64,000 nucleotides of DNA, from NCBI GenBank assembly GCA_022072165.1, contig JAJVIF010000001.1:709353-773352 (forward strand), given 5' to 3'. Shown piece by piece: positions 56,575 through 61,825 of the stretch. The translations under genes were made by a program, and so were the position numbers. Numbering within the stretch: the stretch's first letter is position 1; each line of letters begins with the position of its first letter. The notes under the pieces are model-generated. The model was given only the letters and a program-made list of their open reading frames with translations, was not told the origin of the DNA and did no database searches. Source of the DNA: a bacterium (lineage in GTDB: Bacteria; JAJVIF01).

Positions 56575-57537
56575 ATGCTGCTGCACGCCGGACTCCTCGC
56601 AGTCGGGTTAGTGGTAGTAGTGTTGGGAGCAGAGTTGTTGGTGCGGGGTGCGAGCCGCCTCGCGCTGGCACTGGGACTCACGCCCCTGGTCATCGGACTG
56701 ACCGTTGTCGCGTTTGGTACATCCGCCCCCGAACTGGTCACCAGTACTGTTGCGATTCGCGCCGACTCGCCGGGTATCGCCCTGGGGAACATCATCGGGT
56801 CCAACATCGCGAACCTGGCGCTGATACTCGCCATCGCAGCCATGATTCGGCCTCTTCCCGTGGATTCGGCGGTCATCCGCCGCGATCTGCCACTGCTGGC
56901 GGGAGTGACTCTGCTGACGGTGCTTTTGCTCGGCTTCAGGCTCTTCGGCCTGGCGGCTGGAGTTGGATTTGTCGGCCTCCTGCTCTGGTTTACCGCCTGG
57001 CAGGTCCGCACCTCCCGCCAGGAATTGCCCGCAGTCGCAGCAGAGTTTGAGGAGGAGATCACGAGCCTGAATCAGCCACTCAACAGAGCCCCCCTCATAG
57101 CCGCGGCAGGACTCTCCCTCGTGGGGCTGGGGCTGCTGATAGGGGGCGGACGCCTGCTGGTGGATGCTGCCATTGCGCTTGCCGCCACGCTCGGAGTCCC
57201 GGACCGGATTGTCGGGCTCACGATTGTGGCGGTGGGCACCAGTCTGCCGGAACTGGCCACGACCCTGGTGGCGGTCCTGCGAAATGAGCCGGATGTAGCC
57301 GTCGGAAATGTGGTGGGCTCCAACATCTTCAACCTGCTCTTCATCGGCGGAATCGTGGCCATGTTGCACGGAGCCCCATTGGTCCTTCCGACGGCTTCTC
57401 TCGTGGATGGCTGGGTGATGGTGGCCGTGACTACCGTCGCCGCCGGATTGCTCTTCACCGGGCGCGCGCTCTCTCGAGCAGAAGGGGGCGTGCTGCTGGC
57501 GGGCTATGTCACCTACCTGGTCTGGCTGATTCGCTAA
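56575..57537 (+). CDS. Na+/Ca2+ exchanger family membrane protein (copy 1)
   Basis: 320 residues, about ten membrane helices in two inverted halves. The alpha-repeat motifs are GLTVVAFGTSAPELVTS and GNIIGSNIANL in the first half, and GLTIVAVGTSLPELATT and GNVVGSNIFNLL in the second. Glu residues of the GTSxPE motifs bind the cation. It is of the YrbG/CaxA prokaryotic type, exchanging sodium or proton for calcium across the cytoplasmic membrane. The central cytoplasmic loop (about residues 140-165) is acidic. A close paralogue follows 91 bp downstream. The start codon lacks a strong ribosome site. Confidence 0.9.
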   Translation: MLLHAGLLAVGLVVVVLGAELLVRGASRLALALGLTPLVIGLTVVAFGTSAPELVTSTVAIRADSPGIALGNIIGSNIANLALILAIAAMIRPLPVDSAVIRRDLPLLAGVTLLTVLLLGFRLFGLAAGVGFVGLLLWFTAWQVRTSRQELPAVAAEFEEEITSLNQPLNRAPLIAAAGLSLVGLGLLIGGGRLLVDAAIALAATLGVPDRIVGLTIVAVGTSLPELATTLVAVLRNEPDVAVGNVVGSNIFNLLFIGGIVAMLHGAPLVLPTASLVDGWVMVAVTTVAAGLLFTGRALSRAEGGVLLAGYVTYLVWLIR

Positions 57538-57628: not shown

Positions 57629-58597
57629 ATGCTGCTGGCTGGCCAGCTCATCCTCGGTCTGGTAATGCTCGCCTACGGCGCGGAATGGCTGGTCCGGGGG
57701 GCGAGCCGTCTGGCCCTCGCTGCGGGCCTGACTCCACTGGTGGTCGGCCTGACCGTAGTGGCCTTCGGGACCTCAGCCCCTGAACTCATCACCAGCGTGG
57801 TTGCAGGATTGCGCGGATCGTCCGGCATCGCCCTGGGCAACATCATCGGCAGCAATATCGCGAACATTGCACTGATTCTCGGAGCGGCGGCGACCATTCG
57901 GCGGATCCCGGTGCAGTCTGAGGTGATCCGTCGCGACATGCCAATCATGGTCATCATGACCATCCTGTTCTTCATCCTCCTCAAGCAACAGTGGTTCGGC
58001 ACCATTTCCGGCATTGTCTTCATCGCACTTCTCATTCTCTTCACGACTTGGCAGATCTACACCAGTCGCCTGGAGCTACCCGGCGTGTCCTCCGAGTTCG
58101 CCAGAGAAGTGGGAGACATCAGCGAGCCGATCGATAAGTCTCCAATCGCTGTCGCAGTCGGACTCACCATCGTTGGCCTGGTGGTCCTGGCCACCGGGGG
58201 CCGGTTCCTCGTGGAGTCCGCCGTCCAGATCGCCCAGTTGCTCGGCATCAGCGACCGCATCATCGGCCTGACTATCGTGGCGGTCGGGACCAGCCTGCCG
58301 GAGCTCGCGGCGACTGTTGTGGCGGTCCTCCGGAACGAACCGGATGTCGCGGTGGGCAACGTGGTGGGATCCAACATTTTCAATATCCTGCTGATCGGCG
58401 GGGTGGTGGGGTTACTGGGCGGCAGTGCGGTCGCGACCCCCGTCGGGATTTCCACCGACCTTTGGGTCATGCTGGCAGTGACGACTTTTGCCTCGGTGCT
58501 GCTGCTCACCGAGCGGGCCTTGTTTCGACGGGAAGGCGCGATTCTGCTGGTGATCTACTTCGGCTACATCGCGTGGCTCGTCTTCTTCTCACGCTAA
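57629..58597 (+). CDS. Na+/Ca2+ exchanger family membrane protein (copy 2)
   Basis: 322 residues, co-linear with copy 1 over the whole length. It has the same alpha-repeat motifs (GLTVVAFGTSAPELITS, GNIIGSNIANIALIL; GLTIVAVGTSLPELAAT, GNVVGSNIFNILLIGG). The central loop (EFAREVGDISEPIDKSPI) and the helix around residue 100-115 (IMVIMTILFFILLKQQWFG) differ most, so the pair arose by duplication followed by divergence and may have different ion preference or regulation. ATG has only a weak GGCG site upstream. Confidence 0.9.
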   Translation: MLLAGQLILGLVMLAYGAEWLVRGASRLALAAGLTPLVVGLTVVAFGTSAPELITSVVAGLRGSSGIALGNIIGSNIANIALILGAAATIRRIPVQSEVIRRDMPIMVIMTILFFILLKQQWFGTISGIVFIALLILFTTWQIYTSRLELPGVSSEFAREVGDISEPIDKSPIAVAVGLTIVGLVVLATGGRFLVESAVQIAQLLGISDRIIGLTIVAVGTSLPELAATVVAVLRNEPDVAVGNVVGSNIFNILLIGGVVGLLGGSAVATPVGISTDLWVMLAVTTFASVLLLTERALFRREGAILLVIYFGYIAWLVFFSR

Positions 58598-58680: not shown

Positions 58681-58896
58681 TCAGTGAGTCGTGAACGAGG
58701 TTGCCCGGGCGGCGGTGACTTCCAGGAGATCCATCAGCAGCAGTGAGAGGTCCACCCCCTGGCTGGTGCAAGCGGTTTCCAGCGGGCGATCCAGGTCACG
58801 TTCCCAGTCCAGCCCATTGGTGCGGAAGACATCTTTCGCGGTCGGATGAGCGGTGACATAGTCCCGGACCGGGGACATGATGGTGAGATCGGCCAC
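58681..58896 (-). CDS. Orphan DUF542-like small protein lacking the cysteine pair
   Basis: 71 residues from a GTG start 9 bases after AAAGGAG. The sequence VRDYVTAHPTAKDVF, then NGLDWERDLDRPLETAC, then SQGVDLSLLLMDLLE aligns without gaps to the DUF542 domain of the RIC protein at 6650, but the CCGG motif is replaced by ERDL. The hemerythrin-like domain is absent. It may be a degenerate regulator or a protein-binding module; a Cys-dependent role is unlikely. An FNR-like site lies about 80 bp upstream. An open frame to 58989 is possible but lacks a ribosome site. Confidence 0.65.
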   Translation of the reverse strand: MADLTIMSPVRDYVTAHPTAKDVFRTNGLDWERDLDRPLETACTSQGVDLSLLLMDLLEVTAARATSFTTH

Positions 58897-58975
58897 AGAC
58901 AGCGCTCCTTTCGGGTCTCTGAAACAGACCCTCTGTAAGTGGCGGACAGTCTGCTGCCACCCAACGATGAATGCC

Positions 58976-58989
58976 TTGATACACATCAC
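58976..58989. promoter_or_regulatory. FNR-like box upstream of the DUF542-like gene
   Basis: TTGAT-ACAC-ATCAC differs in one base from the FNR consensus TTGAT-N4-ATCAA. It lies between the SDR gene and the small DUF542-like gene. No clear -10 box at a standard distance is seen, so function is uncertain. Confidence 0.4.
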
Positions 58990-59906: not shown

Positions 59907-60953
59907 ATGCTTGTACCCCGCCCCCCGGTTCCCTCCCCTCCCCCGCCAGGCCAGGTCCCGGCCCCCCTGTGGGACCCGGACTTCCGGTCAACGCTGCCTG
60001 TGTCGTACCGGGGGGGGAGCATCGCGGTCGGCGATCCCCCCCTGTGGCTCGATCCGCAGATGCCCAAGGATTTCGCCATCGTGTCGCATGGCCACAGCGA
60101 CCACATCGCTCCGCATCGCCTGGCGCTAATGACACCCGAAACGGCAGCGATTTATCGACATCGACACCTGGAGGCGGGTCCAGTCATCGAGCTGGCCTAC
60201 GGCGAGCCGTATGAGGTCGCGGGCCGGGAGATTCGTCTCTATCCCGCCGGACACATCCTCGGATCGGCTATGGTCTGGATCAGCGATGGCTCCACCAGCG
60301 TGCTGTACACCGGCGATTACAAACTCCGGGAGAGTCTGACGGCGGTCTCAGCTGCGCCTCCTCCCGCAGACATCCTCATCACCGAAACCACTTTTGCTTT
60401 GCCGAACTACCGCTTTCCGGACCCCGCCTGGTTGCAGTCCGCCATCGCAACCTTCGCACAAGCCTGTCTTGCGGAGGGCGAGACGCCGGTGTTTCTGGGC
60501 TATCCCCTGGGGAAAAGCCAGGAACTGGCGGCGATTCTCTGCCAGCACGACATCCCCGTAGCGGTCCAGCAATCCATCGCCAGCATCTGTCGGATTTATG
60601 AGCGAGCCGGGATTACCTTCCCCGGACTGTCGGTCTATCAGCAGGGAGCCGCGCCGGGCTGCGCGCTGGTGCTAACCGAGAGTCCGAAACTACCGGGACT
60701 CCTGGCGGGATTACAAGCGCCCCGGGTGGCGTACTGCTCCGGCTGGGCCCTGGCGGAGAAACCGTTTACCGGCCTACAGGCTGATCTTTGCCTGCCATTT
60801 TCGGATCATGCCGACTTCCCGGAGTTACTGCATTTGGTCGAGGCGGTGCAGCCACGGCAGGTCTGTACAGTTCATGGCTTTACGAAAGAAGCCGCTGCGA
60901 TTCTGCGTCGCTATGGCATCCCCGCGCAGCCCCTGGCAGCAGCTCCCGGATGA
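59907..60953 (+). CDS. Ligase-associated MBL-fold DNA exonuclease
   Basis: 348 residues. A Pro-rich start precedes the metallo-beta-lactamase motifs: SHGHSDH with HGHSDH at 61-66, YPAGHILGSAMV, YTGDYKLRES and a C-terminal LPFSDHADFPELLHLV and CTVHGF. The segments ITETTFALPNYRFPDP and LGYPLGKSQELAAIL are diagnostic of the ligase-associated DNA exonuclease group, which trims DNA ends. A TATAAC box only 11 bases before the ATG suggests a nearly leaderless transcript. The gene overlaps the next by ATGA, and that gene encodes a ligase homologue, confirming the family. Confidence 0.88.
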   Translation: MLVPRPPVPSPPPPGQVPAPLWDPDFRSTLPVSYRGGSIAVGDPPLWLDPQMPKDFAIVSHGHSDHIAPHRLALMTPETAAIYRHRHLEAGPVIELAYGEPYEVAGREIRLYPAGHILGSAMVWISDGSTSVLYTGDYKLRESLTAVSAAPPPADILITETTFALPNYRFPDPAWLQSAIATFAQACLAEGETPVFLGYPLGKSQELAAILCQHDIPVAVQQSIASICRIYERAGITFPGLSVYQQGAAPGCALVLTESPKLPGLLAGLQAPRVAYCSGWALAEKPFTGLQADLCLPFSDHADFPELLHLVEAVQPRQVCTVHGFTKEAAAILRRYGIPAQPLAAAPG

Positions 60954-61825
60954 GCGCACCCTTCGCCGATTTCGCCATCCTCTTTGAGCAGCTCCGTCAC
61001 ACCCGCGGACTGGCACGTCAGCGTGCGCTGTTCCTGCACTTCTTTCAGTCGCTGTCGCAGTCAGATCAGGCCGTGGTCCAGGGCTGGGCTGACGAGGAGA
61101 ACAAGCTGCGGCTGCAGTCGAAGCCCCTCATAGCGATCGCGATGCAACTGACCGGCTGGGATGCTGAGGTCATCGGTTGGGTGCAGAAATCCGAGGGGAG
61201 TCTGCCGGCTGCCATTGGGTCGCTGCTGCCCGCGCAGGAAGATGATCCAGAGCTGACACTCGGGTATGTGGAGACTGCGCGAGTCACGTTGCGTGCTGCG
61301 AGCAGTCAGAAGCGCTATGCCTACCTGGCAGAGTTACTTGGAATGGCCAGCCCAGTGAGCGCAACAGTCCTGCTGAAACTGATTGCAGGGCAGTTGCCTC
61401 TGGGAATGCTACTGACCCCGGAAACTCCACCTGAGCGTCCCTTTACGTTTCGGCTGGTGATCGTCGCGGCCAGTGCTGACCATGCCGATCGGATGAGCCT
61501 GCTCTCCGACTACACGATCGCGGTCTGGCATGAGGGGCATTTGCTCAGCATTGGGACCGTCTGGGAAGGACTGGAAGCGGCTACTCAGACTCAACTGACC
61601 TCGGTGCTCAACACGCTGATTATTTCCCGCAAAGGACCAGTAGTCCTCGTGGAGCCCCGGATCGTGCTGGAAGTGGCCTGTTCCGGAGTGGCGATCAATC
61701 GTCGACGTCAGGCGGGGTATGCCCTGCAAGCTCCGGCCATCGTGCGCTGGCTGCCAGAAGTCGCGCCAGAGGCTGCCGATTCTCTGGAGCAGGTCCTGCG
61801 GACCTGCCTGCAGCAACCGGCTTAG
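60950..61825 (+). CDS. ATP-dependent DNA ligase homologue lacking the adenylation domain
   Basis: 291 residues; members of this exonuclease-partner ligase family are normally about 500-600. Residues 1-155 match the helical N-terminal DNA-binding domain (FAILFEQLRHTRG, LRLQSKPLIAIAMQLTGWDAEVIGW, MASPVSATVLLKLIAGQLPLGM). Residues from about 165 match the C-terminal OB-fold (DYTIAVWHEGHLLSIGTVWEGL, PVVLVEPRIVLEVACSGVAINRRRQAGYALQAP, IVRWLP). The whole central nucleotidyltransferase domain with the KXDG lysine is missing, and the junction is clean, with no frameshift. It cannot adenylate itself as it stands, but could bind DNA and recruit the coupled exonuclease. Confidence 0.82.
   Translation: MSAPFADFAILFEQLRHTRGLARQRALFLHFFQSLSQSDQAVVQGWADEENKLRLQSKPLIAIAMQLTGWDAEVIGWVQKSEGSLPAAIGSLLPAQEDDPELTLGYVETARVTLRAASSQKRYAYLAELLGMASPVSATVLLKLIAGQLPLGMLLTPETPPERPFTFRLVIVAASADHADRMSLLSDYTIAVWHEGHLLSIGTVWEGLEAATQTQLTSVLNTLIISRKGPVVLVEPRIVLEVACSGVAINRRRQAGYALQAPAIVRWLPEVAPEAADSLEQVLRTCLQQPA

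Follow-up and report, generated by a model that had tools for sequence, protein, structure and literature searches.

An MBL nuclease and an overlapping DNA ligase homologue lacking the adenylation domain: a putative non-catalytic ligase partner with parallels in Verrucomicrobiota

Gene organization and the nuclease

The window, a stretch of 64,000 nucleotides from a 1.88 Mb contig of a bacterial genome (3.26 Mb, 99.1% complete), contains a pair of overlapping genes on the plus strand. The first (59907..60953, with its ATG at 59907 and a TGA ending at 60953) encodes a 348-residue MBL/β-CASP/RMMBL nuclease of the ligase-associated exonuclease superfamily, and its stop codon is interleaved with the start codon of the second gene in an ATGA tetranucleotide at 60950..60953 (plus strand), visible in the sequence itself. 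The overlap reported in the preliminary description is therefore borne out by the extents of the two open reading frames (59907-60953 and 60950-61825).

Against the NCBIfam model TIGR04122 the nuclease scores 191.4 bits, well under the curated cut-off of 325, although the metal-binding motifs of that family are present, the metal-site residues His61, His63, Asp65 and His66 (HxHxDH), His116, Asp137, His301 and His323 being invariant in the alignment; the RMMBL domain is also matched. The AlphaFold2 model of the nuclease (pLDDT 89.2, pTM 0.88) finds its nearest structures, as assessed by Foldseek, in CPSF73, TTHA0252 and RNase J, and the enzyme, which would cut DNA or RNA, is probably catalytically active. 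In the nuclease tree the window nuclease falls within a wider sister group, outside the clade scoring above the TIGR04122 cut-off, and branches outside the group of fused and solitary nucleases from Verrucomicrobiota, beside a Planctomycetota sequence; since this neighbour is a long branch, the exact placement is unsure.

Upstream of the pair, two adjacent and similar membrane proteins (56575-57537 and 57629-58597) have, on reading their translations, the appearance of a tandem of CaCA-type cation antiporters, and the translation of a small minus-strand gene (58681-58989) resembles the DUF542/ScdA N-terminal domain.

The pseudo-ligase

The second gene (60950..61825, plus strand; ATG at 60950, stop codon ending at 61825) encodes a LigB-derived pseudo-ligase of 291 residues, composed of the ligase DNA-binding domain (DBD) and the OB domain without the intervening adenylation domain (AMD). 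The DBD (60959..61408, plus strand) is recognized by the Pfam model DNA_ligase_A_N (PF04675) above the cut-off (E = 1.8e-6), the OB domain (61442..61795, plus strand; supported by Pfam, NCBIfam and the AlphaFold2 model) matches DNA_ligase_A_C (PF04679) slightly below it (E = 9e-5), and the Pfam search of the protein found no DNA_ligase_A_M (PF01068). The LigB model TIGR04120 is matched in two pieces, the DBD covering model positions 2-148 and the OB domain positions 400-522, with a total of 89.9 bits, short of the curated cut-off of 400; of the family hallmarks, the DBD is present and the KxDG adenylation domain and the RxDK of motif VI are absent. In an alignment with ten full-length ligases the adenylation domain, comprising motifs I-V and about 200-250 residues, appears as one clean gap, and the junction or linker left in its place (61409..61441, plus strand) was delimited from the alignments and from low pLDDT values. 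The description of the neighbour as a protein that retains both flanking ligase domains and lacks the entire catalytic one in frame is thus upheld by Pfam, NCBIfam and the alignment.

The reading frame is kept across both domains (291 codons), with a native codon composition. Structure prediction, which had been proposed as a check, models both domains confidently: the AlphaFold model, computed with 48 ligase homologues, has a mean pLDDT of 93.6 and displays a complete helical DBD and a complete OB fold, with the blocks of lowest pLDDT falling between them. In Foldseek the two domains align together to single archaeal and human ligases, in which the adenylation domain appears as an insertion, and the model also matches human ligase 1 bound to DNA.

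The former motif VI (61727..61762, plus strand) lies within the OB domain and has been thoroughly altered, the R-F-(P)-R...R-x-D-K pattern of ligases being replaced by Q-A-(P)-A...L-x-E-V. Among 53 ligases, each of the six residues (R, F, R, R, D and K, here Q, A, A, L, E and V) is conserved at a level of roughly 90% or higher. On the other hand, structural residues of the OB domain have been kept, among them Arg180, Tyr187, Gly206, Pro235, Glu240, Gly255, Ala257 and Leu258 (numbering of the 290-residue translation). This combination bears on the age of the loss, which looks old on the sequence evidence, because a fresh deletion or an assembly error would have spared motif VI, which lies outside the gap. 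A recent deletion or assembly error would fit the occurrence of the form in one genome only, yet with all six conserved motif VI positions eroded beyond the gap, a clean in-frame junction and a contig of 1.88 Mb it is very unlikely, and the erosion of motif VI likewise argues against a simple artefact. A pseudogene or artefact was judged unlikely for this same erosion. The predicted fold, the native codon usage and the motif pattern all indicate that the loss is real and old, in a protein whose function is still putative.

Distribution and genomic context

A DBD-OB profile run against 385 surrounding genomes and 388 genomes from one other phylum (that of G136) gave one continuous match, to the window protein alone; in the other ligases of these genomes the DBD and the OB domain were matched separately, on either side of the adenylation domain. 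The search for homologues with the same gap, another of the proposed checks, came back empty: no second DBD-OB protein was found in relatives by single-protein search or in 192 genomes with the LigB model, a tblastn search of plasmids returned OB-domain matches to ordinary LigB only, and neither phages nor a library of defence systems contained a match. A scan of genome and viral contigs with the short protein also found no relative, which, being based on six query words of eight residues, is weak evidence of absence. As far as these sequences go, the exact DBD-OB form is a singleton so far. Orthologues with the full domain at this place in close relatives would, according to the preliminary description, have pointed to a deletion or assembly error; instead, three other genomes of the same class contain no such nuclease and no such ligase.

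The genome encodes one NAD+-dependent ligase, LigA (PF01653), so that replication has its ligase, and no PF01068 domain was found anywhere in this 99.1%-complete genome, which leaves no ATP-dependent ligase catalytic domain of the usual family to act in trans. The presence of LigA together with the absence of PF01068 counts in favour of a pseudo-ligase, as do the change of all six motif VI residues and the retention of the structural residues of the OB domain. The usual partners of such ligases were also sought in the genome: the ligase-associated Lhr helicase (TIGR04121) gave no match, and the PdeM phosphoesterase (TIGR04123) gave a partial match of 20 bits, the cut-off being 150. In this respect the genome differs from those with the four-gene LigB-exonuclease-Lhr-PdeM repair cluster, as it lacks Lhr, and PdeM above the cut-off.

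Motif VI is needed for adenylation. The possibility, raised in the preliminary description, of a subunit that works with a separate adenylating protein is therefore poorly compatible with the loss of motif VI from the window protein and with the genome-wide absence of PF01068, although the linker between the DBD and the OB domain could accommodate a partner. A stand-alone adenylation domain of the PF01068 family was rejected by the genome search, a separate adenylating partner is unlikely on the sequence data, and a split ligase reconstituted in trans is close to refuted.

Nuclease-coupled pseudo-ligases in Verrucomicrobiota

A scan of genome contigs with the nuclease alignment yielded 80 loci, with identities of up to 43%. 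In 35 of them, almost all from Verrucomicrobiota, the nuclease is joined to a DBD, an adenylation domain and an OB domain, nearly always in a single open frame of about 900 residues, and most of the remaining loci are solitary nucleases. Nuclease-LigB fusions were already known from Opitutus terrae and from Antarctic metagenomes (PMC10140301). The genes beside the solitary nucleases were considered as candidate divergent short ligases, and HMM searches at low thresholds detected none.

Many of the Verrucomicrobiota fusions have lost their catalytic residues or domains. In seven genomes of the genus g448 (loci of this genus: L249-L255, L164 and L165) the protein has the arrangement nuclease-DBD-AMD, without the OB domain, and the active-site lysine is replaced (motif I variants EDLYDG, EDLHDG, EDRYDG, EELHDG and ETLFDG). 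Four genomes of g548, a second genus of the same family, share this arrangement (loci L231-L234), with the lysine changed to glutamate (EQEHDG, EFEHDG, EREHDG and EQEHAG) and the OB domain again absent, while a fifth g548 genome (L235) has an intact ligase with EDKYDG and an OB domain. The glutamate of motif III (DGE) is lost in both genera. The losses in g448 and g548 differ from each other in the residue that is found, and the intact sister L235 separates them. In g442, which belongs to another family, several genomes encode only the nuclease and the DBD in proteins of 566-631 residues (loci L166, L238, L239, L240, L244, L245 and L246) and others lack the OB domain, with intact relatives of 900 residues alongside; two solitary nucleases of g442 (L218 and L220) branch within the nuclease+DBD group.

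Mapped onto the nuclease tree, dead or lost ligases and the other states are connected by 10 changes, nine of which are forced by well-supported branches; ten is an upper-end count, since losses of several kinds were scored together as dead/lost, and so was L102, an apparently OB-less fusion whose OB domain sits in the next frame and which therefore probably reflects a frameshift. Read from these sequences, the conversion of the LigB partner of the same nuclease into a pseudo-ligase is a recurrent event that took place several times in Verrucomicrobiota and gave conserved products, and the pseudo-ligases of this phylum and that of the window are of separate origins.

Two irregular loci were also encountered. 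At L241:1124-3436 a single open frame in one genome joins nuclease, DBD and RuvX (YqgF; Pfam RuvX, E = 3e-36), RuvX was not found near the other copies, and this fusion may be a chance read-through. In one g448 genome (G943; L256/L273) the nuclease-pseudo-ligase gene is split into several frames and is possibly a pseudogene.

The dead adenylation domains evolve under constraint. Codon models gave ω values of 0.067 in g448 and 0.058 in g548, equal to that of the intact adenylation domain of g442 (0.063), all of them rough because synonymous sites are near saturation, with a clear direction nonetheless, and the fit was better than that with ω = 1 by 268 (g448) and 205 (g548) log-likelihood units. 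In the pairwise comparison of G604 with G670, pN/pS was 0.28 for the dead domain and 0.26 for the nuclease. The dead domains of g448 and g548 are thus clearly under strong purifying selection, and these pseudo-ligases do something.

The same constraint weighs against the main rival explanation, according to which the ligase remnant no longer has a function and marks a stage in the decay towards a solitary nuclease. Such decay would account for the solitary nucleases placed among the nuclease+DBD proteins of one Verrucomicrobiota genus, for the erosion of charge and conserved residues in the window DBD and for the finding of the DBD-OB form in a single genome. It is harder to reconcile with the intact frame of 291 codons and native codon use in both domains, with the confident predicted fold and the retention of structural residues where catalytic ones have been lost, and with the strong purifying selection that acts on the dead domains of g448 and g548; overall, decay is considered unlikely.

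The retained domains and DNA binding

The DBD and the OB domain are the parts of large ligases that encircle DNA. If both still wrapped nicked or gapped DNA, the pseudo-ligase might act as a clamp that loads the nuclease there, as had been suggested, and the model, in which the two domains are folded and match DNA-bound human ligase 1, is consistent with this role. The composition of the protein, on the other hand, speaks against it. The window DBD carries a net charge of -2; for 82 intact nuclease-LigB fusions the median is +3, and the corresponding values are +2 in the forms with a dead AMD and -0.5 in the nuclease+DBD forms. The arginine of the GDLRIG motif, which 99% of intact fusions have and most pseudo-ligases have lost, is replaced by Pro150 (numbering from Met1), a conserved lysine has become glutamine, and the conserved Lys202 of the OB domain (290-residue translation numbering) has become threonine. 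With the charge and the arginine gone, tight wrapping of DNA would no longer be the task, and a structural or docking role is favoured, charge counts being an indirect measure.

The clamp proposal is weakened by these substitutions and appears rather improbable. It stays alive because the structural role of DNA ligase IV in end joining operates through DNA binding (PMC10858965). The DBD of human ligase IV also provides a precedent for docking, as it binds the MBL nuclease Artemis (PMC3664939).

Discussion

The window protein shares with LigB (TIGR04120), the cisplatin damage response ligase, the DBD, the OB domain (with an identity of about 31-40% to the LigB OB domains that match it best) and an adjoining ligase-associated MBL nuclease. 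It differs in the absence of the adenylation domain and of motif VI, and cannot be a ligase. Opitutus terrae and its relatives have nuclease-LigB fusion proteins (Ejaz and Shuman, 2018, as described in PMC10140301), and the order nuclease-DBD-(AMD)-OB is the same in the window, whose nuclease is 38-43% identical to the scanned fusion loci; here, however, it is distributed over two overlapping genes rather than one polypeptide, and the ligase part is dead and devoid of the AMD. The gene overlap and the matching domain order count for descent from a nuclease-LigB unit, which would have been the ancestor of the pair. Adenylation, nick sealing and the chemistry of motif VI have disappeared from the partner, with the DBD and the OB domain remaining as a folded, non-catalytic protein. 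Most likely this partner would dock on the nuclease, holding or orienting it on its substrate.

The retention of the pseudo-ligase as a non-catalytic scaffold or subunit of an active nuclease is the best-supported reading, in which we place a modest degree of confidence. We infer that the two window proteins bind each other, that a scaffold role prevails over strong DNA binding and that the pair acts in a repair pathway. The restriction of the short form to one genome and the lack of the pair in three relatives of the same class argue against a scaffold, and the solitary g442 nucleases that branch inside the nuclease+DBD group also fit a stepwise decay. With the window case confined to one genome, the scaffold reading draws its strength from the parallel cases in Verrucomicrobiota (L231-L234, L249-L255, L166 and L238-L246), in which the same nuclease is accompanied by a DBD that has been kept and catalysis has been lost. 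The Verrucomicrobiota proteins dropped the OB domain, retaining a dead AMD, or dropped both domains, in contrast to the window protein, which dropped the AMD and kept the OB domain.

Taken across these lineages, it is an evenly balanced proposition that ATP-dependent ligases coupled to this nuclease turned, time and again, into conserved pseudo-ligases with scaffold or regulatory roles. The routes would have differed: loss of the adenylation domain in the window, loss of the lysine and of the OB domain in two Verrucomicrobiota genera, and, in a third genus, the disappearance of both catalytic domains.

According to PMC10140301, no function is known for the LigB-associated nuclease. If the ligase has indeed been repeatedly killed and nevertheless kept, it must serve a further purpose that is not catalytic, and the system could be approached through the contribution of the dead ligase to the nuclease, which, rather than ligation, would be the core function of the system. 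ATP-dependent DNA ligases would also join the enzymes that have given rise to conserved pseudoenzymes, of which no report was found for these ligases in the open-access literature, with few subscription journals covered. The pair would furthermore offer a bacterial parallel to the contact between Artemis and DNA ligase IV in vertebrate NHEJ (PMC3664939), which likewise brings together an MBL/β-CASP nuclease and the DBD of an ATP-dependent ligase; this is an analogy only, as ligase IV is eukaryotic and catalytically active whereas the ligase of the window is dead.
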